The notes under the pieces: model-generated
What the model saw: the letters and a program-made list of their open reading frames with translations, nothing else
What the model was told of the DNA's origin: nothing
The model's database searches: none
Origin: Actinomycetota bacterium
GTDB taxonomy: Bacteria > Actinomycetota > Thermoleophilia > Solirubrobacterales > 70-9
Direction: 5' to 3'
Assembly (NCBI GenBank): GCA_005885405.1
Contig: VAYN01000012.1
Span: 202,555 to 266,554 of the forward strand
DNA length: 64,000 nucleotides
Program-made: the position numbers and the translations under genes
Part shown: piece after piece, positions 49,383-64,000 of the stretch
Numbering within the stretch: position 1 is the stretch's first letter
How the letters are laid out: the number at the start of each line of letters is the position of its first letter

Positions 49383-49478
49383 GCGCCCGTAGCTCAGTGG
49401 TCAACGGGTCCTTTCGGGGGCCCAAAGAGCGTCGGTCTTTCAAGCCGAAGGTCGCCGGTTCGAATCCGGTCGGGCGCA
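49383..49478 (+). tRNA. tRNA-Glu (anticodon TTC) with a ~22-base structured insertion in the D-loop
   Basis: Acceptor GCGCCCG/CGGGCGC (49383-49389 and 49471-49477, discriminator A 49478), D-stem GCTC/GAGC (49392-49395 and 49427-49430), anticodon stem TCGGT/GCCGA with loop CTTTCAA giving anticodon TTC, T-arm GCCGG-TTCGAAT-CCGGT. All arms are intact, but the D-loop is 31 bases (49396-49426) rather than about 9. The extra bases form their own hairpin, GGGTCC/GGGCCC. No CCA is encoded. The gene contains the left copy of a 17-bp direct repeat that also marks the far end of the island. Confidence 0.85.
49437..49453 (+). repeat. attL core: 17-bp direct repeat within the tRNA anticodon arm
   Basis: CTTTCAAGCCGAAGGTC, running from the first base of the anticodon loop to the variable loop. 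Identical to 61786-61802. Anticodon-loop crossover is a common choice of tyrosine integrases. Confidence 0.8.
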
Positions 49479-49595
49479 TTCCTTGGTGTTCCGCTCTGTA
49501 CCGAGTATTTCCCAGTGCAGAGACAAATCTTCGCCCTGGCCCTGGATTGGCGTTCCGGCAGCGTCGAGCGGTTCCGGCCGTTCCAGCGCGTTTGC

Positions 49596-49613
49596 TCTCA
49601 TTTCGGCCGCATC
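49596..49613 (+). repeat. Island repeat A (TYTCATYTCGGYCRCATC)
   Basis: TCTCATTTCGGCCGCATC, first of three related 18-base motifs in the same orientation (others 57992-58009 and 61730-61747). The copy lies 143 bases inside the left boundary. Candidate integrase-arm or att-flank sequence. Confidence 0.5.
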
Positions 49614-49634
49614 GGCCTACGGCGCCTGCTGAGT

Positions 49635-50494
49635 TCAGCCCTCCGCCTCGTCGGCAAGCTCGTCCTTCAATTCGTCGGGAGTCCCAGTCCCTACCTGCGC
49701 ACGCAAAGAAGCGAAGTTGTTCGTGTAGAGGTTGCGGGGGCCGCTGAGGCGGCGGTTGGTCCCTGGGGCGACCAGGATGCGTTTACGCGATATGAGCCCT
49801 GCGGCCTCAAGCTTCTTAAGACCTCGTTCAAGGGTGGGTTCCGAGAAGCCAATTCGAACTCGGTCGTCAGGGCCATAAAAGTCCTCTTTGTCCGCGAACC
49901 ATGCGAGAGAGCGGAACCATTTCCGTTCGCCCGGATCCCGCTCCCGGCCGGTTGCATAACGCTCTGCTGCCGTTGCTGCGAGGTAGGCCGCAAACTCCTG
50001 CGCGTCCCAGCGGGCAAGAGTACGGGTGGCTACAACTGCACCCAGGATAGTCACGTAGGTGTTCCCGGCTGACCCATCCGGGTCATCAAACGGCTTGCCG
50101 CTACCGTCGTCTCGGAGGACGGTGAGCTTGGGGCGCCTTCCCGGTCGTTCATCTCTCCGAAGCAGAGATATGTCTTCCAGGCGAGCGAGCTGATGTCCGA
50201 CCCACTTACGCTTCAGATGGCGTTCCTCTGGCGACGCTTCTAGTCCGGGTGCTGCCGCTCCGGACTTCCCGCTCCCCCGTGCCAGGTCATGGAGCAGCTC
50301 CCAACTGCACCTAGGCACGACAGTCCCCTCCTCGCGATTGCCGGCGTCCCGAGGCAGGAGAGCGATACAACGGATGCGCGATCTCTGATCAGCGGCGCGA
50401 GGTGATCAGCTAGGTGTCGCTCGCGAACTCGGAAGACGTGCTTGCCGATGACTCCCGAGCCCATTCTCAGTGGTTTACCGCTTGGATCTGCCAT
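49635..50494 (-). pseudogene. Probable winged-helix protein gene with a frameshift (hypothetical)
   Basis: The C-terminal 227 residues (from about 50318) are in one frame: VPRCSWELLHDLARG, HQLARLEDISLLRRDERPGRRP, and a winged-helix-like segment SEPTLERGLKKLEAAGLISRKR. Upstream, that frame stays coding-like (IALLPRDAGNREEGTV) but has no start, while the adjacent frame supplies a credible N-terminus from ATG 50494 (MADPSGKPLRMGSGVIGKHVF, RERHLADHLAPLIRDR). A frameshift near 50380 would join them. The presence of a C-terminal wHTH suggests DNA binding, for instance an island replication or regulatory protein; no family is recognised. Confidence 0.5.
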
Positions 50495-50884
50495 AAAATT
50501 TACTTTTGTCCTCGCAAAACCCAAAATTTGCCTAACCCGCGCTTAGCAGTAACGCTAGCACCAGTTGGGAGGTAACGCTGCCCCCGACACAGATGGAAAC
50601 AGAAAGAGACATCGCAGGCAAGGGACTAAGCAGGCAGAGGACTCCACAGCTTCCCTCCGAGCGGGGGTCAGGGGACTTGGAAACCCAGCTGGAGTTCCCT
50701 ACGGTTGGTTGAGCCGAGGCAAGCTGCGCAGTCCGTTCGGAACGGCCGGCTCTGGCGAACTCCCGTCGTAAGTGGAGGTGCCGGGGCCGGTCTCCGGCTC
50801 GGCAGTCTGACCTAGCTGTGCTTATCACCGACGAAGTCTGCGACCTCAACCCGTTTCAAGGGCATCCGCATTCGGGCTAACGAC
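50495..50884. other. Non-coding gap in the island
   Basis: 390 bases with no credible gene. It begins A/T-rich (two AAAATTT copies about 28 bases apart and TTTTG/CAAAA inverted repeat near 50496-50530), which could be the promoter/operator of the divergent gene at 50494. A GTAACGCT sequence occurs twice near 50550-50580. The rest appears to be decayed DNA between that gene and the integrase relic. Confidence 0.5.
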
Positions 50885-51460
50885 CACGGGCCAAAAAGAA
50901 GCCCCGCCCGATCCGCGTCTTCAGGTTCGAGGAGATGCACCGCTTCGCCAAACAGCAGGGCGCTACGAGGCGATGGTCTGCGTCTTCACCGACTGCGGCC
51001 TGCGGCTAGGGGAGGTGCTGCCCTTGCGCCGCGAAGACTTCGACGGCGAGACCCTCCAATTTCGCCGCACCGCCCACGAGGGGCGGATCCTCGAGGGAAC
51101 GAAGACCGACCACGGCGAGGCCGACGCCGGCCGCTTCGTTCCCGTGCCGGCGACCCTCGCCTGGATCCTCGAAGCCCAAATCAACCTCAACGGCCCCGAC
51201 TGCCAGCTCCTCTTTCCGACCCCCCGCGGCCGCCTTTGGCGCGAGCGCACCTTCTACCGCGACGTCTGGAAGCCGGCCCAGGAGGTGTCCGGCCTACATA
51301 TCCGCCCCATGAGTGCCGGCACAGCTACGCAACCCACCTCCGTGGCATGCCAGAGATCAGCGACGCTGATTTGGCGGAGGTTGTGGTCATCGCATTGAGA
51401 CCATGCTGGCGCGCTAAAACGCATTCCACCGGAGGCACCTTCGCCTCTGTCAGAGCCGCG
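50885..51460 (+). pseudogene. Tyrosine recombinase/integrase relic
   Basis: C-terminal catalytic half of a phage-type integrase in three frames: RPIRVFRFEEMHRFAKQQG, then (frame change near 50965) YEAMVCVFTDCGLRLGEVLPLRRED with the first catalytic Arg, then (frame change near 51305) PHECRHSYATHLRGMPEISDADLAEV with the H-x-x-R box. The final block should read ETMLARYTH; here it reads ETMLAR followed by TAA, so the catalytic Tyr codon is a stop. The N-terminal arm-binding domain is not visible. Inactive remnant of the island's own integrase. Confidence 0.85.
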
Positions 51461-51507
51461 ATCGGGTAATGGTGAGGGATCCTTGGATACCCTTCGGGGG
51501 AGCGGGG

Positions 51508-52653
51508 ATGGATGTAAACGAGAAAACTCTGAGAAGCCGGCCCCGAATGCGGGCGGCAGTCATCGACAGTCTGACCCAGCAAGGATTTACCTTGAGCGAG
51601 GGGAAGATCGTCGCGCCGAGCATGGATTCGAAGGAGTCCCTGAGGGCGCTGCACAGTGAGGCGGTCGGCCATCAGCGCGAGAAGTCCCGGCCGGGCCTAG
51701 AGCGGCACGAGCGGGTGCTTTTGAAGTCCATCGCGAATGGAACCGAAATCGATCCGAGCAAGATCCGACCCCGCCTAGCGCAGGTTCATCCAGGCACGGA
51801 GGAGGAGTTGCTCTTTCGATGGGCTCGGCTCCATTGGTCTATTCCGACGTCTGCAGGGTATGGGCGCCGTCTGCGGTTCGTAGTTCGCGACGAGGCACAT
51901 AACAACAAGCTGATTGGGATTCTCGGGCTGTCCGATCCCGTTTTTGCTTTGGGGGGGCGCGACGATTGGATTGGTTGGGATAGTGAGGGCCGCCGAGAGC
52001 GCCTCCATCAGGTTATGGACGCGTTTGTCCTAGGTTCCGTACCTCCCTACAACATGCTCTTGGCGGGAAAGCTCGTCGCGTTACTAGCAACTAGCGCGGA
52101 GGTTCAGGATGCGTATGCCGGCAGGTACTGTGGCCGGGCATCTCTTATCGCTTCAAAGCGACGTCACGCCCCTCTTGCCCTCATAACCACGGCCTCGGCG
52201 CTTGGTCGATCTTCCGTCTACAGCCGGCTACGTTTGCAGGGGAGGAAGGCAGCTATCAGCGTGGGATTCACCCGTGGATCTGGAGACTTCCAATTTGCGA
52301 ACGGATTGTACGATGCACTCAGCGCGTACGCGGCGAGGAACTGTACCGCCACCGCCAAGCACAGCAACTGGGGGTCTGGCTTCCGCAATCGCCGCGAGGT
52401 TGTCAAGAAGGCCCTGCAGCACTTGGGTCTCAATGATGCCCTGATGTACCACGGGGTACAACGAGAGATCTTCGTGTTCCCATTGGCAACGAACACTCGT
52501 GAGGCACTGACCAAAGGGGATGAGTTGGCGCCGTACTCTGAGTCAGCGGAGTACATCTCAGAGTTCTGGAAACTGCGTTGGATGTTCCCGCGCGCCGTCC
52601 GAGATGACAGATACAAGTCATTTGATCGTGACTCATGGCGCTTGTGGACTTGA
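51508..52653 (+). CDS. DruA-like (DUF4338) protein, first gene of a putative defence operon
   Basis: 381 residues from ATG 51508, chosen for the GGGGGAGCGGGG ribosome-binding stretch; an in-frame ATG at 51469 would add 13 residues. Family-like blocks: RRLRFVVRDEAHNNKLIG, FALGGRDDWIGWDSEGRR, VPPYNMLLAGKLVALLATS, TTASALGRSSVYSRLRLQG, WGSGFRNRREVVKKALQHLG and YHGVQREIFVFPLA. From memory these match the DUF4338 family, whose member DruA belongs to the Druantia anti-phage systems. Biochemical role unknown. Its 3' end overlaps the NurA-like gene by 19 bases, showing translational coupling. Lower GC and different codon use from the core genome. No druB-E-like genes are adjacent. Confidence 0.75.
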   Translation: MDVNEKTLRSRPRMRAAVIDSLTQQGFTLSEGKIVAPSMDSKESLRALHSEAVGHQREKSRPGLERHERVLLKSIANGTEIDPSKIRPRLAQVHPGTEEELLFRWARLHWSIPTSAGYGRRLRFVVRDEAHNNKLIGILGLSDPVFALGGRDDWIGWDSEGRRERLHQVMDAFVLGSVPPYNMLLAGKLVALLATSAEVQDAYAGRYCGRASLIASKRRHAPLALITTASALGRSSVYSRLRLQGRKAAISVGFTRGSGDFQFANGLYDALSAYAARNCTATAKHSNWGSGFRNRREVVKKALQHLGLNDALMYHGVQREIFVFPLATNTREALTKGDELAPYSESAEYISEFWKLRWMFPRAVRDDRYKSFDRDSWRLWT

Positions 52654-53813
52654 CCCAGCTCGATAGCCCTTCAGATCAACCCTTTGTTGACCTCCCAGCT
52701 GGCCTGGTCGACGAACTCATCGACAACACGGGCGCTATCGGCAGCAGGGTTCTGGAGGGATTTGAACACTTGCGAGAGAACAGGTCGGCTCTCCGCGCCG
52801 GTCTTGATGATCGAAAGATCCTCGGAGCCGAGGGGGATCTGCCTAGGGCGGAACCGGCGACGGTTGCTGCGGTTGACGGATCTTACGCCGTAGACCGCCT
52901 CCTCACGACTGACCTCTGCGTTTGCGCGGCGGTGGGCGTCGAAGGTCTTACTCCACCGCACGAGTCGCGAGTGTGGCCTGATCCAAAGCACCGTACGTTT
53001 GTGACCGAGGAAAGCCATAGCGAGGAGACGGCGACGGTCTTGAGAGCAGTCATGGTGGGGTATGAGCTAGAGCTTGCCGAAGCAGCGCCTCACTCAGTCG
53101 TAATGCTGGATGGCACCTTGGCCTTGCCGATCATCTACTTCAACCAGGCATTCGACAAGGCCGCATCTGCCCCGCAGAGAAAGGTAGCGTCCTGCTTCTT
53201 AGAACGAGCGCTGCCGTTCTTGGAAGCCTATGAGCAAATGCTGACTTCACCTCGCTCGGATAAGTACTACATCGGTCTGCCAAAGTACTCAACGAAAAGA
53301 GAGGTCGGAACTGCGTTGGCTTGGCCGGCGGCATACGATGATCGCGGGTTGCTTAGCCTCCTTCTCCAAGCAGGGGAGTACACGAAGCCAATGCAACTTG
53401 AGAAGCCGCCCTCGCCGTGGCATTTATCGCTAAAGGGCCTCGATGGGAGTCAGCTAGATCGAGCCGGCGAGGTCGTCGAGCGAATTCAAGCGGCGATGTC
53501 GAACCTTTGGACGTGCTACTACCGGCCGAGATCGTGGCTTCCGGCGGTTCGTATTGAGATGGCCGCCAGCATCGCAGGGAACCAGCAACAATTAGCCAAT
53601 GTGCTGGGTGGCGTCAAGGATCAATGTGCGGCGCCTGGCATGATGGAGCCGTACCCGATCTATATGGCAGATCGTATGGTGAAGTCGATTTCTACGGCAT
53701 TGCCCGCGATTCGTCAGGTCGTCACTCAGCAAGCATGTGAGAAATACGGGGGAGATGTAGGTGAGGTCTTCTTTGGGCTGCATAGCTACCGATCCGAAGC
53801 GGGGGCAGCGTGA
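52635..53813 (+). CDS. nurA: NurA-like nuclease
   Basis: 392 residues. NurA family: 5'-3' nuclease that works with HerA on DNA ends. The metal-binding motif AVDGSYAVDR (~79-88) at the start of an RNase H-like core and the second acidic motif VVMLDGTLALPI (~155-166) are visible, with further family-like stretches KYYIGLPKYSTKREV, and WLPAVRIEMA. The stop overlaps the next start in a GTGA arrangement, so NurA and HerA are coupled, as expected for physical partners. Confidence 0.82.
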   Translation: MALVDLTQLDSPSDQPFVDLPAGLVDELIDNTGAIGSRVLEGFEHLRENRSALRAGLDDRKILGAEGDLPRAEPATVAAVDGSYAVDRLLTTDLCVCAAVGVEGLTPPHESRVWPDPKHRTFVTEESHSEETATVLRAVMVGYELELAEAAPHSVVMLDGTLALPIIYFNQAFDKAASAPQRKVASCFLERALPFLEAYEQMLTSPRSDKYYIGLPKYSTKREVGTALAWPAAYDDRGLLSLLLQAGEYTKPMQLEKPPSPWHLSLKGLDGSQLDRAGEVVERIQAAMSNLWTCYYRPRSWLPAVRIEMAASIAGNQQQLANVLGGVKDQCAAPGMMEPYPIYMADRMVKSISTALPAIRQVVTQQACEKYGGDVGEVFFGLHSYRSEAGAA

Positions 53814-55600
53814 GTAGCGCTAGTGCGCGAATGCGGGAGCTGGCGGCTGCTTCGGAGCGCCTTGGTGTCGTCGGATCCCCATCCACGACCGCCGAGCTTG
53901 CCATGGATGTACTCGGGACCGCCGTGCAAAAAAAGCTTGTGGGCGAGTTAGCGTTCTTGCAGTTTGTTCAAGACGGCAAAGATCATTATGCCTTAGGTCA
54001 GATAACTGAGGTTGAGCTGCGAAATGTATGGCACGAGGACCCGACTATCCGCAGCCTTATTCGCCAGCGTGGTGGTGTGGATCAGATCAGCGAGCGCCAG
54101 GACACTCATTTAGGCCGGATGACGCTAAGCGCAGTCTTCTCAGAGAACTCTGAAGGCAAGTACGCACCGTCATTCCTGGGGACCGTGCCATCGACCGGGA
54201 CGAACATATATCTGGTACGCGATCAGGTCTTAGAAACTCTTCTCGAGCCGTTCAAAGAGGAGCTGTTCTATTTGGGGCGTGTTTATGGCTCGACTCCTCT
54301 TCTGCCTACGTGGTTTAAGCACTTTGGGTCTGGGCGGGGCGGGGCGGGGGAGGCCTACCACCTCGGGATCTTTGGCAAGAGCGGATCAGGCAAGTCAGTG
54401 CTCGCCAAGCTCATCCTGTTTGCCTATGCGCGGCACGCAGATATGGGGGCAATTGTCATTGACCCACAAGGCGAGTTTGCCAGGGACCTCCGGTCAGGCG
54501 CCGCCGGCCACGAGGGGCTACAGTTGCCGGTGCGCGAAATAATTGAGGGCCTGGGCCGGCAAGCCGAGGTACTGGGCGTAAGCGACCTCGTGCTCGATCG
54601 TTGGGACATCTTCGAGGAGATCCTTTTCGAGTCCCAGTTCTTTGAGCGACTAGGCATGAGGCGCAACAACAATCGGGAGCTTGCCTGCGCCGAGATTGTG
54701 GCGCACCTTAAGAAGAAAAAGGTGACGCTCAAGTCACTGCCCGAGAGGGCATCCTTTGACCAGGCGTGGGCGTTGCTACACGACGAGAAAGCGCTCGCAC
54801 GGATCTACAATCAGAAAGACAGGCGTGCAGGTCTGAAAGATCAGGTCGACAGCGCTGACAGAGATGCCTTTTTCTCCGAGGTGTGGTCACCGGTCGCGGC
54901 ACTCTTCGACGAAAGTCGATCCGGAGCACGAAAGGTCACCTGGGCCATCGATGCGGTTCTCAAGGAGAAGAAGTTCCTAGTTCTGGATTTGTCCGGGAAG
55001 GACAATGAGGACCTCTATTGGAATGCCAGGATTCAGGCACTTACCATTCAGAAGGTAATTAGCGATCTCAAGCAGCGCGCGGAGATGGCTTACGAGGATG
55101 ACAAGAGCTTGAACACTCTGGTTCTGATTGACGAGGCAGCCCGCCTAGCGCCGCGTGAGAAGCCCGACGACGCGGTCGAGCAGCGAGTCAGGGATCAGTT
55201 GATCGACGCGGTCCGGACGACGCGCAAGTACGGCCTTGGATGGCTGTTCATTTCTCAAACCTTGGCGAGCCTGCACCAAGAGATTCTGAATCAGATGCGC
55301 ATTATGTTCTTCGGGTTCGGGTTGTCCTTGGGGCAAGAGTACGACGCGGTCGCGCGGTTGGTGGGCTCGCGGGGACCTGCACTTGACCTTTACAGATTGT
55401 TTCGCGACCCACACTCGGCGTTCAGTGTGGAGAGTCGAGAGTACTCATTCATGACGGTGGGACCCGTGAGTCCTCTGTCGTTCGCGGGAACGCCCCTATT
55501 TCTGAGTGTCTTCAACTCGGTAGATGGGTTCTTGGCGGCGAACCCCCGACTCGCTGGCTCCGGGCAGACCGGATCGGCTGCGCTTTCCGAGGAGCAATAG
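53810..55600 (+). CDS. herA: HerA-like hexameric ATPase/DNA translocase
   Basis: 596 residues, GTG start. FtsK/HerA-superfamily motor: N-terminal HerA barrel-like domain (~1-170), Walker A GIFGKSGSGKSVLAKL (~187-202), IDPQGEFARDL after strand 2, Walker B TLVLIDEAARLAP (~436-448), arginine/sensor region RTTRKYGLGWLFISQTLASL and the C-terminal LGQEYDAVARLVGSRGP block. Forms a ring that pumps DNA into the paired nuclease. Third gene of the DruA-NurA-HerA operon. Confidence 0.88.
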   Translation: MSSASARMRELAAASERLGVVGSPSTTAELAMDVLGTAVQKKLVGELAFLQFVQDGKDHYALGQITEVELRNVWHEDPTIRSLIRQRGGVDQISERQDTHLGRMTLSAVFSENSEGKYAPSFLGTVPSTGTNIYLVRDQVLETLLEPFKEELFYLGRVYGSTPLLPTWFKHFGSGRGGAGEAYHLGIFGKSGSGKSVLAKLILFAYARHADMGAIVIDPQGEFARDLRSGAAGHEGLQLPVREIIEGLGRQAEVLGVSDLVLDRWDIFEEILFESQFFERLGMRRNNNRELACAEIVAHLKKKKVTLKSLPERASFDQAWALLHDEKALARIYNQKDRRAGLKDQVDSADRDAFFSEVWSPVAALFDESRSGARKVTWAIDAVLKEKKFLVLDLSGKDNEDLYWNARIQALTIQKVISDLKQRAEMAYEDDKSLNTLVLIDEAARLAPREKPDDAVEQRVRDQLIDAVRTTRKYGLGWLFISQTLASLHQEILNQMRIMFFGFGLSLGQEYDAVARLVGSRGPALDLYRLFRDPHSAFSVESREYSFMTVGPVSPLSFAGTPLFLSVFNSVDGFLAANPRLAGSGQTGSAALSEEQ

Positions 55601-55652
55601 TCCGTCCAGGATGGAGGGCCTCCAGTTTCGCCAGAATGCCAGTCACTCTGCG

Positions 55653-56058
55653 CTAGTTGCGCGTCCTCACTCCGGATACATCCTGTAGCGCCTGACGCAT
55701 AGCCACATACTGAGGCTCGGTCAGTTGCGCATAATCTCCACCTAGCCGGATCCTTCCCATCGCGCGCTTTGGAGCCAGAGCGGTCGTATGCGGACCGTGG
55801 TCGATCAGGGGGACCCAGACGTCCACCCGGCATGGGTAAACCCAAGGCCAACGCAGTCCCCAGACTGGGTCGCGCTTCCAGCCTGGAGGGCCGATGATTT
55901 CGGCATCTGCGAATAGCCGGACATGAACTACAGCGTGGAACAGGACGCGATCATGCGGTCCCATCTTCGGGGGCTTGCGATGCGTAGCTGGGCCAGTCGT
56001 TCGGAATTGGTGAAAGAGGTTCAGTGACCCCCACAGGCTTCAGCCAGTAGGCAGGCAT
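55653..56058 (-). pseudogene. EVE/PUA-like domain gene, frameshifted in a G5 run
   Basis: ATG 56058 reads MPAYWLKPVGVTEPLSPIPN DWPSYASQAP and then loses frame; the adjacent frame continues KMGPHDRVLFHAVVHVRLF ADAEIIGPPGW and runs to 55653 (QLTEPQYVAMRQALQDV). The join is at the G5 run 55969-55973 on the + strand; one base fewer restores ~134 residues. The YWLKP start, GDRVLFH-type strand and aromatic core resemble EVE domains, which bind modified bases and often accompany restriction and defence genes. Convergent with the HerA gene, 52 bases apart. Confidence 0.6.
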
Positions 56059-56124
56059 GTGCGGTCGCGCGGCGCGTCTTGTCCAGTTCGATCTAGCGAG
56101 TTGACTTCGATTGCCCAGCCCCGC

Positions 56125-57875
56125 TCACCCGGCTCCAACGACCAGGAACTCGGCGCCGACGGACTGGCAGTTGGCCGCGACTGCATTCAGCAACGTATCC
56201 AACCGCCGCAGCCGGGAAAGTTGGTGATGGTTTGCGTCGTTTCTGACTTCGGCAACCAAGCACTCGACCCGATCGCGTCCAGCTGCTCCACAAATTGCTG
56301 CCGGTCCCTGCCAACGCCGTCCTCCCATGCCAGCAAGGTCAAGACATCCGGGAACTGAGTCCCAAGGAGGTTGCCCGACGCTGCAACGGAATCGAGGTGG
56401 CGAAGGTTCTTCACCGCCTGTGCGCATACGGTCTCGTACGGGGCGACAGCAATCTCTCTCGCCGGGCTGGCGGAATGCGCGCCCTTGGCATGAATCAACG
56501 TAAGGACCGGCTTGTCCTCTGAAAGATCGAGATGGATGAAGTCCGCCGTCTCGCCGGGGCGGTCGTCACAGGCGAGCCAACCGCGCGCTCCGATGAGACC
56601 TGCACCGGTCGGCCACTCGTTGTAAATCCAGCCAAATAGCGAGCGGTCGGTGTCGTTAATCGCAGAGAGTCCGTCCTGTGGCTTCTCGCGGTCGACTTCC
56701 CAATCGGTGCCAAAGGGAATCCATTTCCAACCGACGAACGGCAGATCCCGGTAGCGCATCGAGAAGACTTGACGGTCTTGAACCGAGTGCCCGGACTCGA
56801 AGTTCACGGTTACCGCCTCCGGATTGTGCAGGTTCGCCATGACCTGCGTGAACTCCCCGACGTAACCGGGAGTGGCTGATCCCGAAAGCGAGCCATTGAT
56901 CTCATCTCCAACCATGGAGAAATCAAGATCGATCGTGCCCACAACCTCACCGCCTTGGTGCACACTCGCCGATAGCGAAGTTCCTTGCGCTTGCGTGACC
57001 TCAAACGAGGTACCAAATGCAAGTTTCTCCATCGCCGCCAGCGCATCCGCCTCGGTAGAATCAAGGACGGGTCCGGCAATAAGGAGCTCGGGCGGAGTGA
57101 TCGCGACCTCGTAGGCGCCCTCTACCCCAGAAAGATCGCTCTGGGAGGTTGCAAGGACAGGTAATGGCTCGAGGCTCGCCCCCTCGTTTTCGGCCAATAC
57201 GGCGAGCGCCGCAGCAATCGATGCCTCGAAGTCATGCCGATCGGTAGAAGGCGCGACCCAAAGCCGGGACTCGTCTACCGCGAGCCCCATAACGTCCCCA
57301 ATAGTCGCGTTGTCGGGTTCGGCGCGGATCGCCGTGTATCGGTAGCTCTGGTCGGCGAGTGGGTCGAGTGCGCCTTTCAGATCACGGCCGCTCATGACCT
57401 TCGCATCGGCCTTGGAATCAGTCGAATGATGGGTGCCTCGCAGCCACAGGGTCCGAGCCCGGCCCTTTACGAAGGACGCCTTCATCTCGCCTGCGGTCGC
57501 AAATCGCAGTGGGCCCAATTTTCCTTTGCGCAGGGCCTTCTTCACCGAACTTTTTTTCGAAGTCTCGGTGATGTGGATTGCAAGCCAATCTCCGCTCCTC
57601 AAGACAAGAGCCAAGTGGTTCACCCTGTCCAGGACTGGCTCGGTGGCCCAGGCAACTGAGCGACGGACTTCATAGTGCACAAAGGACGTGTCAAGCGGCT
57701 CGGTCTCATTGCCAACCGCGACCACCCGGCGCGACCCGTCGCCTGGTTTGACGTCCATGACTTTGCGCAGCTTCAGGAGCGTTTGCCTGGCGGTTTGCTC
57801 GCTTCCGTCGTGGATGCGTGCCACGAAAACCGATTTGAACGGCTTTAGGTCATCCAGGCTCAGTTTGATTGGCAT
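56125..57875 (-). CDS. Large hypothetical protein with probable PD-(D/E)xK nuclease domain; 3' end frameshifted
   Basis: About 580 residues from ATG 57875 (MPIKLSLDDLKPFKSVFV). The N-terminal two thirds are unrecognised mixed alpha/beta. Around residues 435-475, WLACDDRPGETADFIHLDL then PVLTLIHAKGAHSAS and ETVCAQAVKNL match the layout D...E-x-(A)D...H-x-K of nuclease domains found at the C-termini of defence-type helicases. The reading frame stops early at 56187 (GGWIRC); the expected end RLRRLDTLLNAVAANCQSVG AEFLVVG lies in the neighbouring frame to 56125, joined at a CCC run near 56215. Possible effector of the defence locus. Confidence 0.6.
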
Positions 57876-58194
57876 CGCTACGGCCCCCGCCGTTCCGGAG
57901 TGATGCTCGGATCCTCCCGGTCCTGCGGGCACCACGCAAGGTCAGTTTCGGGTACGCGTTGAGAACCGGGGCTGCGCCATCGCCGGCGGGGTTTCATTTC
58001 GGTCACATCCGCGCGGGAAGCCCCAGAGCAATTGGGCGGCCCGTCGCCCTTCAATCCCGGGGACAAGGATGTGGGCAGTTGTGCGCACAAAATTCATTGT
58101 TGACCAGGAGGGCTGTAATTCCCCATGAGCATTCCCGACGTTGCCGCGGACCGAGGCGGTGAGGGGAGCGGACGCGTTCGTCGGCCGGCCCTTC
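57876..58194. other. Non-coding gap with internal att-like site
   Basis: 319 bases without a credible gene, between the nuclease-like gene start and the UvrA paralogue end. It contains repeat copy B (57992-58009), followed 31 bases later by CCGTCGCCCTTCAATCCCGG, which resembles the right att region CCGTCCTTTCAAGCCGAAGG at 61781-61800 with nearly the same spacing. Also a probable promoter region for the gene at 57875. Confidence 0.5.
57992..58009 (+). repeat. Island repeat B
   Basis: TTTCATTTCGGTCACATC, 15 of 18 bases shared with copies A and C. It is followed at ~31 bases by a degenerate version of the att core, marking the probable seam between two inserted elements. Confidence 0.5.
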
Positions 58195-60690
58195 TCAGGG
58201 GAGGTGCCGGGCGAGATACGGACCCGTGCGGCTCTCGGGCGTGGCCGCGAGTTGCGCCGGTGTACCGGTGGCGATGATCCGGCCGCCGGCGTCGCCGCCG
58301 CCCGGGCCGAGCTCGATGGTCCAGTCGGTGCAGGCGATGACGTCGAGGTCGTGCTCGACGACGACGACCGTGTTGCCGGCATCGACCAGGCGCTGGAGCT
58401 GGACGATCAGCAGTTCGATGTCGGCCGGGTGCAGCCCGGTGGTTGGCTCGTCGAGCAGGTAGAGCGTGTGTCCTCGGCGGGCGCGCTGCAGCTCGGTCGC
58501 CAGCTTGATCCGCTGGGCCTCGCCGCCTGAGAGCTCGGTCGCGGGCTGGCCGAGGCGCAGGTAGCCGAGACCGACGTCGCGCAGGGTGCCGAGGCTGCGG
58601 TCCGCGGCGGGGACGTCGGCGAGGAAGTCGGCGGCCTCGTCGACGGTCATCCGCAGGACGTCGGCGATGGTGTGTGACCGGTAGGTGATCGCGAGCGTCT
58701 CCGGGTTGTAGCGGGCGCCGCCGCAGGTCGGGCAGGGTCCGTAGGTGCCGGGCAGGAACAGCAGCTCGACGGCGACGAAGCCCTCCCCTTGGCAGGTCTC
58801 ACAGCGCCCGCCCGCGACGTTGAAGGAGAAGCGGCCCGGCCCCCAGCCGCGCTTGCGCGCTCCGTCGGTGGCGGCGAACAGCTTGCGGACCGCGTCGAAC
58901 ATCCCCGTGTAAGTGGCGAGGTTGGACCGGGGCGTGCGCCCGATCGGCTTCTGGTCGACGGTGACCAGCCGAGACAGCGCCTCGAGTCCCGCGGCCTCGA
59001 CGCCCACGACCTCGCCGTCCTCAGCGGACTCCGCATCGTCCTCCTCGGCCTCGGCCACCTGCGCCGCGGCGCCGACCACGTCGGCGAGCACCTGGGTCAC
59101 CAGGGTCGACTTGCCGGAGCCCGACACGCCGGCCACCGCGGTCAGCAGCCCCAGCGGGAACCTGACCGCGAGATCGCGCAGGTTGTGCCGGGTGATGTGC
59201 CGGAGCTCCAGCCATTCCTCCGGGTCACGAGGCGCCCGCGCGGATCTCGAATCCGACACGGGAAAGAGATATCGGCGGGTAATCGACCGCTCGACCTCGG
59301 CGAGGCCCTCGACCGGGCCGCTGTAGAGCACCTCACCGCCGTGCTCACCGGCCGCGGGCCCGACGTCGACGATCCAGTCGGCCCGGCGGGCGACGTCCAT
59401 GTCGTGCTCGACGACGAAGAGCGAGTTGCCCGCTTCCCTGAGTCGCTGGAGGACGAGCATCAGCGGCTCGGCGTCGGCGGGATGGAGCCCGGCCGAGGGC
59501 TCGTCGAGGACGTAGAGCACCCCGAAGAGCCCCGAGCGCAGCTGCGTCGCCAGCCGCAGCCGCTGCATCTCGCCGGGAGAGAGCGTGGTCGTCGTCCGGC
59601 TCAGGCCGAGGTAGCCGAGGCCGAGCTCGACCAGGACCGCGATCCGCTCACGAAGGTCGCCGGCGATCAGCTTGGCCACGTCGGTCCGCTCGCCGGAGAG
59701 GGCCGAGAGATGCGCCGGTTCGGGGTCCTCGAGCTCGGCGGCCGGACGCAGGACCTCGGCCAGGGTGGTGAGAGGAAGCGCCGATAGTTCGGCGATGTCG
59801 TAGCCGGCGAAGGTGACCGCCAGCGCCTCCGGCCGCAGCCGCTTGCCGTGGCAGACCGGACACGGAGCGGTTTCGACGTACTGCAGGGCGCGCCGTCGCA
59901 TCGCCGCGCTCTGGGAGTTCGCGAGCGTGTGGCGGATGTGGCGTTCGGCGCTCGAGAAGGTGCCGTTGTAGTAGTAGTCGGCTTCGACTTCGGCGCGGTC
60001 AGGGTGGACTTCGACGGTGGGCTGCTCGTCGGTGAAGAGGATCCAATTGCGATCCCTACGACTGAGCTTGCGCCATGGCTTGTCGATGTCGAAGCCCAGC
60101 GTGACCAGGATGTCGCGAAGGTTTTGGCCTTGCCATGCCCCGGGCCAGGCGGCGACGGCGCGTTCGCGGATGCTCAGCGCGGGGTCAGGGACGAGCGTCT
60201 GCTCGGTGATGTTGTGGATCGTCCCGAGGCCGTGGCACTCGCGACAGGCGCCGATCGCGGTGTTCGGCGAGAACCAGTCTGAGTCCATCACCTCCTCGGC
60301 CCCGGGTGGGTAGGTGCCGGCTCGGGAGAACAGCATCCGCAGCGAGTTCGAGAGCGTCGTCACGGTGCCGACGCTGGAGCGCGAAGTCGCACCGCCGCGC
60401 CGCTGCTGAAGGGCGATCGCCGGCGGCAGGCCGGTGATGTCGCGTACCTTCGGCGCGTCCTGCTGGTCGAGAAGGCGCCGTGCGTACGGCGTCACGGACT
60501 CGAAGTAGCGTCGCTGCGCCTCCGCGTAGATCGTCCCGAATGCGAGCGAGGACTTCCCCGAGCCGGACACGCCGGTGAACACGGTCAGCGCGTCGCGCGG
60601 CGCGTCGAGGTCTACGGCGCGAAGATTGTGCTCCTCCGCCCCGCGCACGGAGACGAAGCCGTCTCGGGGATCGGCTGCGCCCGCCCGCAC
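58195..60690 (-). CDS. Class II-type UvrA paralogue without UvrB-binding domain
   Basis: 831 residues, against about 950 for housekeeping UvrA. Two ABC modules: Walker A GVSGSGKSSLAFGTIYAEAQ (~40) and GVSGSGKSTLVTQ (~525), signatures TLSPGEMQRLRLA and ELSGGEAQRIKLA, Walker B VLDEPSAGLHP and LLDEPTTGLHP, and zinc fingers CRECHG/CPVCHG and CETCQG/CPTCGG. After the first module the sequence passes directly from AGTYPPGAEEVMDSDWFSPN to the zinc region, so the UvrB-binding domain is absent. Such paralogues (UvrA2, DrrC-like) are linked to tolerance of DNA-binding drugs rather than UvrABC repair. Operon with the small gene upstream. Confidence 0.9.
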   Translation of the reverse strand: MRAGAADPRDGFVSVRGAEEHNLRAVDLDAPRDALTVFTGVSGSGKSSLAFGTIYAEAQRRYFESVTPYARRLLDQQDAPKVRDITGLPPAIALQQRRGGATSRSSVGTVTTLSNSLRMLFSRAGTYPPGAEEVMDSDWFSPNTAIGACRECHGLGTIHNITEQTLVPDPALSIRERAVAAWPGAWQGQNLRDILVTLGFDIDKPWRKLSRRDRNWILFTDEQPTVEVHPDRAEVEADYYYNGTFSSAERHIRHTLANSQSAAMRRRALQYVETAPCPVCHGKRLRPEALAVTFAGYDIAELSALPLTTLAEVLRPAAELEDPEPAHLSALSGERTDVAKLIAGDLRERIAVLVELGLGYLGLSRTTTTLSPGEMQRLRLATQLRSGLFGVLYVLDEPSAGLHPADAEPLMLVLQRLREAGNSLFVVEHDMDVARRADWIVDVGPAAGEHGGEVLYSGPVEGLAEVERSITRRYLFPVSDSRSARAPRDPEEWLELRHITRHNLRDLAVRFPLGLLTAVAGVSGSGKSTLVTQVLADVVGAAAQVAEAEEDDAESAEDGEVVGVEAAGLEALSRLVTVDQKPIGRTPRSNLATYTGMFDAVRKLFAATDGARKRGWGPGRFSFNVAGGRCETCQGEGFVAVELLFLPGTYGPCPTCGGARYNPETLAITYRSHTIADVLRMTVDEAADFLADVPAADRSLGTLRDVGLGYLRLGQPATELSGGEAQRIKLATELQRARRGHTLYLLDEPTTGLHPADIELLIVQLQRLVDAGNTVVVVEHDLDVIACTDWTIELGPGGGDAGGRIIATGTPAQLAATPESRTGPYLARHLP

Positions 60691-60699
60691 CCGACCGCC

Positions 60700-61008
60700 C
60701 TACTGTGGCGGCTTCTCGGCAAGGACGTCCAGCTGCTCGACGTTCGGCGGCTCGAACAGCTCGCCCGCTTTTTCGGCCAGCGCCTGCCCGACGGCGCCGT
60801 TGAGGTGCGCCTGGCGGCCGCTGTCGTCGGGGAACGCGTCGAAAATCCCGAACGAGGAGGGCCCGAACCGGACGGCGAACCAGCGGTCCGTGTCCGGCTC
60901 CTGTTCGACTAGTTCGAGGCCTTGGTCGAGGAAAGCCGCGACGTCATCCTCCTTACCCGGCAGCGCCTCGAGGCGTACGAAAAGTCCGACGTTCACTGGA
61001 GTGGCCAT
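60700..61008 (-). CDS. Antibiotic biosynthesis monooxygenase (ABM)-fold protein
   Basis: 102 residues. Dimeric ferredoxin-like fold: NVGLFVRLEALPGKEDDVAAFL, VEQEPDTDRWFAVRFGPSSFGIFDAFPDD, HLNGAVGQALAEKAGELF. Family members oxidise quinols or polyketides, or act as stress proteins, without cofactor. It ends 9 bases before the UvrA paralogue start, so both probably serve one purpose, such as handling a toxic aromatic compound (inference). Confidence 0.85.
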   Translation of the reverse strand: MATPVNVGLFVRLEALPGKEDDVAAFLDQGLELVEQEPDTDRWFAVRFGPSSFGIFDAFPDDSGRQAHLNGAVGQALAEKAGELFEPPNVEQLDVLAEKPPQ

Positions 61009-61185
61009 GAGTGGATTACGCTCCTTGTCTCCGTGGGTGGCCGCGGCTGAGTTGCCGTTCTGACCGGGATGCAGGACGACCGTCGCGCGTTCGCGATGGC
61101 TTCCTTCGCTCGCCTGCCTAACTGGTACCCGTACCCGGACTCGCGAGCGGCAAACTGGTTCGGGTCATCTTCGACACCCCCTTGA

Positions 61186-61677
61186 ATCGCGGGGTACCGC
61201 GCCCTACTGCTCTCGATCGGCGAAGGCGAGATCGCGGCGCGCGACAACGACCTCGAGGACGCCGGCACGTTCTCGGTCGACAAGGTCGTCGCCGACGCGT
61301 CGGTCGACGACTACGACGCGCTGCTGCTCCCGGGCGGAACGGTGAACCCGGACAAACTGCGGATGGACGAGGACGCGGTCCGGTTCGTCCGCGATTTCTT
61401 CAACTCCGGTAAGCCGATCGGCACGATCTGCCGCGGCCCGTGGGCTCTGGTCGAGGCCGGCGTTATGTCAGGGCGGCAGATCACCTCGTTCCCGAGCGTG
61501 CGAACCGATCTCCGTAACGCCGGTGCCGAAGTGCTCGACCAGGAGGTCGTCACCGACGAGTGTCTGGTCTCAAGCCGGAGTCCGGAAGACCTGCCCGCCT
61601 TCTGCGCCAAGGTCGTCGAGGAGTTCGCCGAGGGCAGGCACGACGCCCGTGTCGGGGCGGCGACGGGAGGTGCTTGA
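61186..61677 (+). pseudogene. 5'-truncated DJ-1/PfpI-family gene
   Basis: The frame opens after TGA 61183-61185 with coding sequence IAGYRALLLSIGEGEIAARD, DYDALLLPGGTVNPDKLRMD, the nucleophile Cys in IGTICRGPWALVEAG, SGRQITSFPSVRTDLRNAG and a C-terminal block to 61677. The first ~45 residues of the usual fold are missing and no start codon precedes the coding sequence, so this is a remnant. Intact members are glutamine-amidotransferase-like stress proteins or peptidases. Confidence 0.8.
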
Positions 61678-61729
61678 TGTTGAGGTTCAGGCGCCAGCCA
61701 GTACCCATCCTTTCAATTCGACTTTTCGG

Positions 61730-61747
61730 TCTCATCTCGGTCGCATC
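61730..61747 (+). repeat. Island repeat C
   Basis: TCTCATCTCGGTCGCATC; 16 of 18 bases match copy A. It lies 38 bases left of the right att core. Confidence 0.5.
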
Positions 61748-61785
61748 ATCCCCGCGATCCCTCTTGCGATGCGAACGACCCCGTC

Positions 61786-61802
61786 CTTTCAAGCCGAAGG
61801 TC
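61786..61802 (+). repeat. attR core: right copy of the 17-bp direct repeat
   Basis: Exact copy of tRNA bases 49437-49453. The sequence after it (TAGATTGGCGC) does not continue as a tRNA 3' half, so the tRNA end regained from the island is the one used now and the original end is lost or decayed. Confidence 0.75.
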
Positions 61803-61918
61803 TAGATTGGCGCTTCTAGATTCCCGGGGTCCGCTCGCTGCCTAGGTACCAAAACCAGCTTGGGCCTCCGGCAGCGACACGATTGTTTCTCATGAGAGCT
61901 TCTTCTTCTCAGGATGCC

Positions 61919-61947
61919 TTGACAAGAGAAGCAAAGTTCGGATAAAT
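61919..61947 (+). promoter_or_regulatory. Strong sigma-70-like promoter for the LamG gene
   Basis: TTGACA (61919-61924), 17-base spacer, ATAAAT (61942-61947), 42 bases before the ATG at 61989. Unusually close to consensus for a high-GC genome. Confidence 0.65.
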
Positions 61948-61978
61948 CCCCTGCTCGTCACCAGTCAATGAGCAGGGG
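61948..61978 (+). promoter_or_regulatory. Palindrome overlapping the start of transcription and the ribosome-binding site
   Basis: CCCCTGCTC (61948-61956) and GAGCAGGGG (61970-61978) are perfect 9-bp complements around a 13-base loop. The left arm abuts the -10 box and the right arm merges into the GGGGGGAAG ribosome-binding sequence. It may be a repressor operator, or an RNA hairpin masking the ribosome-binding site if transcription starts upstream. Confidence 0.5.
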
Positions 61979-61988
61979 GGAAGTCGTT

Positions 61989-64000
61989 ATGCCGGTAGTG
62001 AGAGGGGTCCGCTGGACCGTTGGAGCGCCGCTGCTCATCGCAGCTGCGTTGGCGTGGCTCGGGGCCATGGCTCTCATGCCTGTGAGCGCTGAGGCTCAGC
62101 AGCTCCCCGTCGCCGCCTACTCCTTCGACGCCGGCGAAGGCGAAGTCCTCGAAGACCTCACCGGCAACGGCCACGACGGCACCGTCGAAGGGGCCGACTG
62201 GACCAGCCGGGGTCGCTACGGCGGCGCGCTTGAATTCGATGAAAGCGGAGACTGTGTCTCGATCCCAGATAGCCCCGATCTGCAGCTGAGGGAGGAATTC
62301 ACGCTCGAGGCCTGGGTCAGGCCGCAGGCCGAATCCGGAGATCACCCTGTGATCTTCAAGGAAATCGAAAAATCGATGAGTTATGGGCTTTTCCTGGTCT
62401 CAGGCGCCTACCCACAGGGGTCCGTCTCCCCGCAGCCTTCGAAATTTGTGGATGACAAAGCCATCGATCCACTTCCACAAAAGGTCTGGAGTCACGTTGC
62501 CTTTACCTTCGATGGCGCAAAGCTGCGCATCTTTGTGAACGGAGAACTCATTCACGCGGTTGCCAGTGGGGGTCCGATCGCCAGCGAAAAAGCTCTGCGG
62601 ATCGGTTGCAGCCGCTACTGGAAAGAAACCTTCGACGGCCGCATCGACGAGGTCCGCGTCTACAACCGGGTGCTCAGCGCCGGCGAGGTCGCCGAGGACC
62701 GCGCCACCCCGCTGCAGACCCCCCAGCAGCTCCCCATCGCCGCCTACTCCTTCGACGCCGGCGAAGGCGAAGTCCTCGAAGACCTCACCGGCTCAGGCCA
62801 CGACGGCGCCGTCGAAGGCGGCGAATGGGTAGACCGCGGCCGCTTCGGCGGCGCCCTTGAATTCAACGGCGAAAAAGGCGAATGCGTCACCGTCCCCGAT
62901 TCCGAAGAGCTCCGCGGCCGCGAAGAATTCACCCTCGAGGCCTGGGTGCGGCCCAACTCCCCGGTCGGCGACGACCCGATCCTCTTCCGCGCCGACGGCG
63001 GCAACTACGGCGAGGTCCTGGGGATCGGGATCTGGAGCCCGGCTCGCCCCGAAGGCATCATCGGCGAAGGCAAAAGCGAATGGGAGAGCGTCACCGGCAC
63101 CGAATCGATCGAAGCCAACGTCTGGACCCACCTCGCCTTCACCTACGACGGCGCCAAGATGCGCCTCTATTCAAACGGCACCCTGGTCGGCACCCAGGCC
63201 CAGGCCGCCGGCCCGACCGGCGGCGCCGGACCGCTGGTGATCGGCTGCAACCCCAACTGGACCTCTGAAGTCTTCGACGGCCGCATCGACGAGGTCCGCG
63301 TCTACAACCGGGTGCTGGATGCCGGTGAAATTGGTGTCGATATGCGCACCGCAGTACCTGCCAAGCCCACTGTGATGACCGGCGAAGCTGAAGTACTGGG
63401 GCCCAATGAAGCCATCTTCTTGGGAACCGTGGCTTCGAATGACGCCGAGACTAGATATCGCTTCGAGTACGGAACGACGACTGCCTACGGCCAGATGGCT
63501 CCGGAAACCGAAGAAGAAATCGTCTACGAGAACGCCGAGCAAGAAGCTGAAGAAGCAGTTGCCTACTTGCAGCCGAACACCACGTATCACTACCGCCTCG
63601 TAGCGAGGAACACGGTAGGGACTGCAGTCGGCGAAGACAAAACGCTGACTACTCCGCCGTCTGAAGTAAGCCCGGAACAGGAAAAACTAGATCGCGAAGA
63701 AGAAGAGGACTTTACGGCCAGCATTTCAACTTTGCCTCCAAATTTCCTCGGCTTGAATTTCAGAGGACTTCAAGAGCGGACCATCCCCGACATGGAAAAA
63801 GTCGCTGAAACCGGTGCGAGTATGTATCGGATAAGCCTTGAGGACCTGACTCACTTCACGGCAGAAAGAACGAAGTACGACGAAGTGTTTCAGAGTGCCG
63901 CAGCCAACCATATGAAGGTTCTCTTCGTCCTCGGATCAAGGCATCTCACGACGAACAAGTCTGGTTTGGCGACTTGGGTTGAACGGATCGTCAGACGATA
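61989..64000 (+). CDS. Exported double-LamG protein with Fn3-like module and start of a TIM-barrel-like domain (3' end outside window)
   Basis: At least 670 residues, still open at the window edge. Signal peptide to ~36 (PLLIAAALAWLGAMALM ... SAEAQQ). LamG/concanavalin-like domain 1 (~36-235) and 2 (~247-443) share LPIAAYSFDAGEGEVLEDLTG and FDGRIDEVRVYNRVL. An Fn3-like module with YRFEYGTTTAYG and LQPNTTYHYRLVARNTVG follows (~455-553). From ~580, LPPNFLGLNFRGLQE and TGASMYRISLEDLTHF resemble the first strands of a glycoside-hydrolase-type TIM barrel. Probably an extracellular polysaccharide-binding enzyme. DNA of the two LamG copies is nearly identical at their ends but different in the middle. 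Confidence 0.85.
   Translation, partial: MPVVRGVRWTVGAPLLIAAALAWLGAMALMPVSAEAQQLPVAAYSFDAGEGEVLEDLTGNGHDGTVEGADWTSRGRYGGALEFDESGDCVSIPDSPDLQLREEFTLEAWVRPQAESGDHPVIFKEIEKSMSYGLFLVSGAYPQGSVSPQPSKFVDDKAIDPLPQKVWSHVAFTFDGAKLRIFVNGELIHAVASGGPIASEKALRIGCSRYWKETFDGRIDEVRVYNRVLSAGEVAEDRATPLQTPQQLPIAAYSFDAGEGEVLEDLTGSGHDGAVEGGEWVDRGRFGGALEFNGEKGECVTVPDSEELRGREEFTLEAWVRPNSPVGDDPILFRADGGNYGEVLGIGIWSPARPEGIIGEGKSEWESVTGTESIEANVWTHLAFTYDGAKMRLYSNGTLVGTQAQAAGPTGGAGPLVIGCNPNWTSEVFDGRIDEVRVYNRVLDAGEIGVDMRTAVPAKPTVMTGEAEVLGPNEAIFLGTVASNDAETRYRFEYGTTTAYGQMAPETEEEIVYENAEQEAEEAVAYLQPNTTYHYRLVARNTVGTAVGEDKTLTTPPSEVSPEQEKLDREEEEDFTASISTLPPNFLGLNFRGLQERTIPDMEKVAETGASMYRISLEDLTHFTAERTKYDEVFQSAAANHMKVLFVLGSRHLTTNKSGLATWVERIVRR
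62097..62165 (+). repeat. Intragenic direct repeat between the two LamG domains
   Basis: Bases 62097-62165 recur at 62724-62792 with one mismatch seen, and a second block 62631-62674 recurs exactly at 63273-63316. The blocks frame the LamG units and could promote unit gain or loss by recombination. Confidence 0.8.

Follow-up and report, generated by a model that had tools for sequence, protein, structure and literature searches.

A tRNA-Glu(UUC) with a hairpin in its D-loop probably replaces the ordinary tRNA in three genera of Solirubrobacterales and also occurs in phages

We analysed a 64,000-nucleotide stretch of DNA (the window) from a Solirubrobacterales (Actinomycetota) genome, which carries at 49383-49478 on the plus strand a 96-nt transfer RNA (tRNA) gene with anticodon UUC and a hairpin inside its D-loop. 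We conclude that the gene very probably encodes a functional, unspliced tRNA for glutamate, tRNA-Glu(UUC), with an extra arm, and that this tRNA has taken the place of the ordinary one in three genera as the only decoder of GAA codons. Genome comparisons establish the structure of the tRNA, its conservation and covariation, its mutual exclusion with the canonical tRNA and its presence in phages. The parts of the gene are listed below with the evidence for each.

49383-49478, plus strand: tRNA-Glu(UUC) gene with D-loop hairpin, CCA not encoded (Rfam tRNA match; aligned orthologues)
49392-49395, plus strand: 5′ strand of the D-stem, GCTC (invariant in bacterial and GCTC-type phage sequences)
49396-49426, plus strand: D-loop, 31 nt (sequence; Rfam match)
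49402-49425, plus strand: insert CAAC-GGGTCC-TTTCGG-GGGCCC-AA between U20 and A21 (alignment to the ordinary tRNA-Arg(ACG) and to orthologues)
49406-49423, plus strand: D-loop hairpin GGGTCC/GGGCCC (covariation; minimum free energy folding)
49427-49430, plus strand: 3′ strand of the D-stem, GAGC (bacterial alignment)
49439-49441, plus strand: anticodon TTC (UUC) (loop CTTTCAA the same in all 19 distinct bacterial sequences)

The gene reads GCGCCCG TA GCTC [AGTGGT CAAC GGGTCC TTTCGG GGGCCC AAA] GAGC G TCGGT CTTTCAA GCCGA AGGTC GCCGG TTCGAAT CCGGT CGGGCGC A, with the D-loop in brackets. A cmscan search with the Rfam tRNA model (RF00005) returned 66.2 bits (E 2.7e-13) against a gathering threshold of 29, with all four arms paired and the insertion placed in the D-loop, which makes the gene a member of the family. 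Ordinary tRNA D-loops are 4-12 nt long (PMC5733544). Folding by minimum free energy turned the insert into a 7-bp hairpin closed by a UUCG loop, T49412 pairing with G49417. A first-pass annotation had described a 31-base D-loop with its own hairpin, at coordinates that proved exact, and had counted about 22 extra bases able to form GGGTCC/GGGCCC; that hairpin stands, and the insert measures 24 nt. The anticodon UUC lies in a 7-nt loop with U33 and A37, as tRNA-Glu(UUC) demands, and the length of this loop is fixed in the bacterial alignment by the U31-G39 pair, which becomes C-G or U-A in relatives. ARAGORN misplaced the anticodon and called the window tRNA a 96-nt Pro(ggg), called the copy of one relative Thr(ggt), and reported hairpin tRNAs as Pro, Thr, Ala or not at all. 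These errors mean that such genomes and phages are annotated as having no tRNA-Glu(UUC). A sigma-70 promoter scan gave no match.

In tRNA numbering, ordinary D-loops vary in length at positions 20a and 20b. Because the U20/A21 site is variable in ordinary tRNAs and the bases of the D-loop/T-loop contact are kept (G18, G19, U8-A14 and G15-C48), a hairpin that points outward from the elbow is plausible. We propose that the insert would form a fifth helix, a stable hairpin kept in the mature tRNA between positions 20 and 21.

We found full-length copies, 94-97% identical, in 10 of 11 relatives of the same genus. A covariance model that includes the D-loop hairpin (R2) scored hairpin tRNAs at 92-120 bits and ordinary tRNAs at no more than 67 bits, and was then run over 232 genomes of the order. 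The hairpin tRNA was present in 35 of the 232, confined to three genera that we call g1 (11/12), g9 (3/3) and g35 (21/24). A pattern scan of GTDB genomes gave 18 assemblies with the hairpin tRNA, all but one labelled Solirubrobacterales, Thermoleophilia or Actinomycetota; the lone match labelled Alphaproteobacteria lies on a 5.3-kb contig and is probably misbinned. The recurrence of the same tRNA in these two sets led us to reject an assembly artefact, which the first-pass annotation had raised. One g9 genome has two different hairpin tRNAs (L321 and L322), one of them with GTAAACGGGACC in its D-loop.

Across 19 distinct bacterial sequences, 99.4% of cells in the whole structure were paired, bearing out the earlier remark that all arms pair well, and the D-loop hairpin itself was 97.4% paired with five of its six pairs altered on both sides. 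The stem occurs as GGGTCC/GGGCCC, GGTTCC/GGGGCC, GGCACC/GGTGCC and GGGCTT/AGGCCC. UNCG-type loops are frequent (TTCG, TACG, TCCG), and the linkers on either side vary (CAAC/CAAA and AAA/GAA). For the structure as a whole the covariation score was 0.321 compared with 0.124 in shuffles, none of 500 of which reached 0.321, and did not exceed 0.091 when the alignment was slid; a chance hairpin was rejected on these controls. The anticodon stem and T-stem covary likewise. Repeated double changes that keep the hairpin paired point to strong selection on the extra helix. Of the outcomes that the first-pass annotation had considered, an insertion that is tolerated is favoured, and one that is positively conserved fits the covariation better still.

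We asked what else could read GAA in these genomes. The tRNA list of the window genome holds 47 matches, among which the ordinary Glu tRNA is a single one with anticodon CUC by ARAGORN readings. The second tRNA-Glu(TTC) that the first-pass annotation had wanted sought did not appear: by tRNA listing and ARAGORN, neither the window genome nor a 100%-complete relative (G009) has another UUC tRNA. In G009 all other needed anticodons are on ordinary tRNAs, and UUC is solely on the hairpin tRNA. In other genera of the family the tRNA-Glu(UUC) is an ordinary one, with the form GGCCCCGTGGTGTAA..AGCAC..TTTCA. When canonical Glu-UUC genes were detected across the order by a pattern of D-arm plus anticodon, 152 of 193 genomes from other genera had one, compared with 0 of 39 in g1, g9 and g35 (Fisher p about 4e-22). 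Incomplete assemblies account for single missing cases and not for 0/39, so that the exclusion goes beyond gaps in metagenome-assembled genomes (MAGs). The earlier concern that relatives might hold an intact ordinary tRNA elsewhere was thus not borne out in the hairpin genera. The best reading of these gene contents is that in three Solirubrobacterales genera the hairpin tRNA took over from the ordinary tRNA-Glu(UUC), and that it would be the sole GAA decoder there.

GAA makes up 22% of Glu codons in about 400 sampled open reading frames of the window genome. We aligned its GAA codons with a relative whose genus has the ordinary tRNA (G012), and they met E most often (43%), then D and A, in the same order as GAG codons; a stricter set was also run. 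From these alignments, we conclude that GAA still means Glu in the hairpin-tRNA genera. Since GAA is common and still Glu, the hairpin tRNA must read many codons per cell. Reassignment of GAA, with the tRNA carrying another amino acid such as Arg, to which its body is nearest, would be in keeping with the 83% identity between the insert-free body and the window genome's tRNA-Arg(ACG) and with the lack of GAA in the most conserved Glu columns of the glutamyl-tRNA synthetase (GluRS). We give it next to no credence, for the codon alignment argues against it, the G009 tRNAs for Lys (0.81) and Gly (0.80) are almost as near to the body as Arg, and a code change is rejected as far as the alignments go. 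With Lys and Gly so close, the origin of the body is not assignable; its identity to the Glu(UUC) of a family relative is 0.68. Nor does the hairpin tRNA have the identity elements of tRNA-Arg, A20 and C35 (PMC9976931), as it carries U at 20 and U35.

The hairpin tRNA is also found in phages. We searched IMG/VR by D-arm pattern, which gave 11 contigs first and a larger total later: 13 contigs with a tRNA of the window's GCTC/GAGC type (11 distinct sequences, R2 scores 87-103 bits) and 3 contigs of 51-170 kb (L431, L471 and L490) with a second type, GCTG/CAGC, that has its own hairpin and is distinct from the window's. L431 holds both, which makes 15 phage contigs overall. In the 11 distinct sequences all six hairpin pairs were changed on both sides. 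The anticodon is UUC in 10 of the 13 GCTC-type contigs and in all 3 of the second type; two contigs with identical copies have CCU and one has UGC. The genes around these tRNAs resemble those of phages (tail sheath, tape measure, helicase, ribonucleotide reductase, topoisomerase). Some of the hairpin tRNAs lie within nearly complete phage tRNA sets. L421 and L431 each have about 29 other tRNAs or transfer-messenger RNA (tmRNA); Glu(CUC) is among them as an ordinary tRNA, and the UUC place is taken by the hairpin tRNA. No ordinary UUC tRNA was seen in the ten phage records with UUC copies, which may be fragments. The tmRNA genes within phage tRNA arrays lie at 6701-7089 in L421, 4069-4451 in L431 and 9130-9491 in L419. 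Among cultivated phages (50,697 records), a distant blastn search with three hairpin tRNAs matched only 3′ halves of other tRNAs, and the Glu tRNA that it matched in a Streptomyces phage is of ordinary length.

Genes of the RNA ligase family phrog_548 lie near the hairpin tRNAs of L419, L431 and L471. A ligase beside three phage copies could also serve splicing, in which a nuclease and a ligase would remove the insert after transcription as an intron-like segment and leave an ordinary tRNA-Glu of about 72 nt; taking out the 24 nt does restore an ordinary D-loop, AGTGGTA. Group I introns in tRNAs are hundreds of nucleotides long with a group I core and usually sit in the anticodon loop. The insert lies in the D-loop and, with its 24 nt, falls far short of that size, and an Rfam scan of 47-52 kb found no group I match. 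A bulge-helix-bulge is not recognisable at the borders either, where a 4-bp D-stem, linkers of 10 nt and 3 nt and the hairpin offer no paired 3-nt bulges around a 4-bp helix. The conservation of the stem and often of the UNCG-type loop, next to variable linkers, is that of a retained structural element. We therefore consider splicing unlikely and return to an unspliced tRNA with a fifth helix.

One proposed role of phage tRNAs is to counteract tRNA-cutting nucleases of the host, through changes that sit in the anticodon loop, and cut tRNAs can be repaired by RNA ligases as in T4 (PMC10264068). The RNA ligase genes nearby suggest that phages with hairpin tRNAs may face such nucleases. What the hairpin does is the least certain part of our account, and we think it most likely that it alters which proteins can bind the tRNA. 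It is possible, at somewhat under even chances, that it hides the tRNA from nucleases that cut tRNA-Glu during infection. We hypothesize a little more tentatively that it stands in for missing GluRS identity elements or plays another identity role, and other roles take up the rest of the probability.

In a GluRS tree, g1 and g9 group together (98/91) within their own family and g35 falls in another family. By protein search of the flanks, the tRNA locus is near lysS in g1 and g9, with an SDR gene between in g1, and neither gene is at the g35 loci. Given the different loci and GluRS trees that follow the organisms, two or more gains of the tRNA are probable, or else a transfer between the families, in either case without the synthetase, and genome sequences establish at least two chromosomal placements. 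We found one GluRS-type synthetase per g1 or g9 genome, wherever it was found, and with a single gene this enzyme should charge Glu(CUC), the hairpin tRNA and perhaps tRNA-Gln. No residue in the GluRS alignment separates the hairpin genera from the rest, and the gene counts, alignment and tree gave no sign that GluRS had been co-transferred or had specialised. A second PF00749 gene, GluQRS-like, was not found in g1 and g9 genomes and is present in many relatives. In the mechanism we propose, the tRNA would have entered bacteria from the phage tRNA pool, and would be made, matured with its hairpin, charged by the resident single GluRS and used on ribosomes.

Several points weigh against this interpretation. 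Most of the genomes compared are incomplete MAGs, and transcription, charging with Glu by GluRS and use on ribosomes are things we infer from DNA alone. Charging by GluRS is assumed, with the Glu elements outside the anticodon being missing: by the E. coli rules these are U11-A24, U13-G22:A46 and the absence of residue 47 (PMC9976931), and the hairpin tRNA has C11-G24, C13-G22 and a residue 47. It does carry U34, U35, C36 and A37, and the retained meaning of GAA as Glu lends glutamate charging indirect support. The CCU and UGC hairpin tRNAs of phage contigs L415, L416 and L420 indicate that the hairpin is not strictly tied to Glu. The bacterial copies are likely of phage origin and spread by phages, with 96 nt yielding no rooted tree, and the nuclease-escape idea is an association drawn from phage carriage and the RNA ligases nearby.

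An odd shape and the missing canonical Glu elements outside the anticodon would also suit a regulatory or otherwise non-ribosomal RNA, such as a donor of Glu to another pathway, rather than a codon reader. We regard this as very unlikely: in a complete genome from a GAA-using genus no UUC tRNA besides this one was found, and within phage tRNA sets it fills the UUC slot.

The codon-reading tRNA that we favour instead can be set beside several known systems. It has in common with canonical bacterial tRNA-Glu(UUC) the UUC anticodon, A37, the 7/5 acceptor-T branch and, by inference here, GAA decoding; the canonical tRNA differs in having no 31-nt hairpin D-loop, and the hairpin tRNA differs at 11-24, 13-22 and residue 47. 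Archaeal tRNAs can have introns at noncanonical positions, including the D-loop, which have bulge-helix-bulge borders and are spliced. These share an extra D-loop segment with the hairpin tRNA, in which such borders were not seen. In the available sections of a review of non-canonical tRNAs (PMC7609411), tRNA-Sec and the allo-tRNAs with 8/4 or 9/3 branches are likewise natural bacterial tRNAs off the standard cloverleaf; they alter stem lengths or the variable arm, whereas the hairpin tRNA adds a helix inside the D-loop and is otherwise standard. Those sections show no tRNA with a D-loop hairpin. The phage tRNAs proposed to evade anticodon nucleases are similar in their carriage by phages with large tRNA sets, but their changes are in the anticodon loop, the D-loop goes unmentioned (PMC10264068), and the hairpin type has also replaced a bacterial tRNA. 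We found no description of a bacterial or phage tRNA with a D-loop hairpin or D-loop insertion in the open-licence literature, and all known bacterial tRNAs are said to have the canonical fold (PMC11551756). Our comparison suggests a shape not known from bacteria that comes close to a new structural class of tRNA. We put at about even the chances of a wider claim: that there is a class of bacterial tRNA with a D-loop arm in its mature form, which arose or spread within the tRNA arrays of phages and entered bacteria at least two times, each time displacing the essential ordinary tRNA-Glu(UUC) and possibly giving immunity to nucleases that target that tRNA.

If true, exceptions of this kind would not be limited to organelles: a cell would have, for a common codon, one decoder only, and that one with an additional helix. 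This would raise the questions of how an extra arm at the elbow is accommodated by the ribosome, RNase P, GluRS and the modification enzymes, whether a phage can provide its host with an indispensable tRNA, and whether tRNA shape is a trait of defence or counter-defence. The insertion site would also be a natural model for tagging tRNAs.

The tRNA gene adjoins an integrated element, with these features.

49437-49491, plus strand: attL-like repeat, the 3′ part of the tRNA plus 13 nt (attR copy beyond the window end, at window coordinate 66378, with 5 mismatches in 55)
49492-64000, no strand assigned: integrated element of about 17 kb bounded by tRNA-3′ repeats, extending beyond the window to about 66.4 kb
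51469-52653: DruA, within the element
52635-53813: NurA, within the element
53810-55600: HerA-like ATPase, within the element
58195-60690: UvrA/ABC-type ATPase, within the element

Integrases commonly use tRNA genes as sites, and the tRNA stays whole. Borders made of tRNA-3′ repeats are shared with other tRNA-targeted integrative elements and are ordinary for tRNA genes; such elements leave the hairpin unexplained, and this one is a neighbour of the tRNA with no part in its function. The first-pass annotation had asked if the gene might be a non-functional copy used only as an integration site, and the site proved real. A damaged copy or pseudogene kept merely for integration would fit the element with its tRNA-3′ repeats and the partial 3′ copies that lie elsewhere in relatives. 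We find it scarcely credible, as the hairpin, anticodon stem and T-stem show compensatory changes around an invariant anticodon loop, phage copies sit in tRNA arrays and no other UUC tRNA was found in the window genome or G009; the hairpin tRNA has neither the decayed pairing nor the intact paralogue elsewhere that mark a pseudogene.

Within the element, DruA (Druantia) beside NurA and the HerA-like ATPase (51469-55600) forms a possible anti-phage defence cluster. The product of 58195-60690 is 831 aa long, has UvrA DNA-binding and ABC domains and partially matches the PADLOC mad3/mad8 models. Elsewhere in the window genome, L074 99-188 (G000:C5:29874-29960) is a weak tRNA-Ile(gat)-like match of 87-90 nt that scores below the Rfam cut-off.
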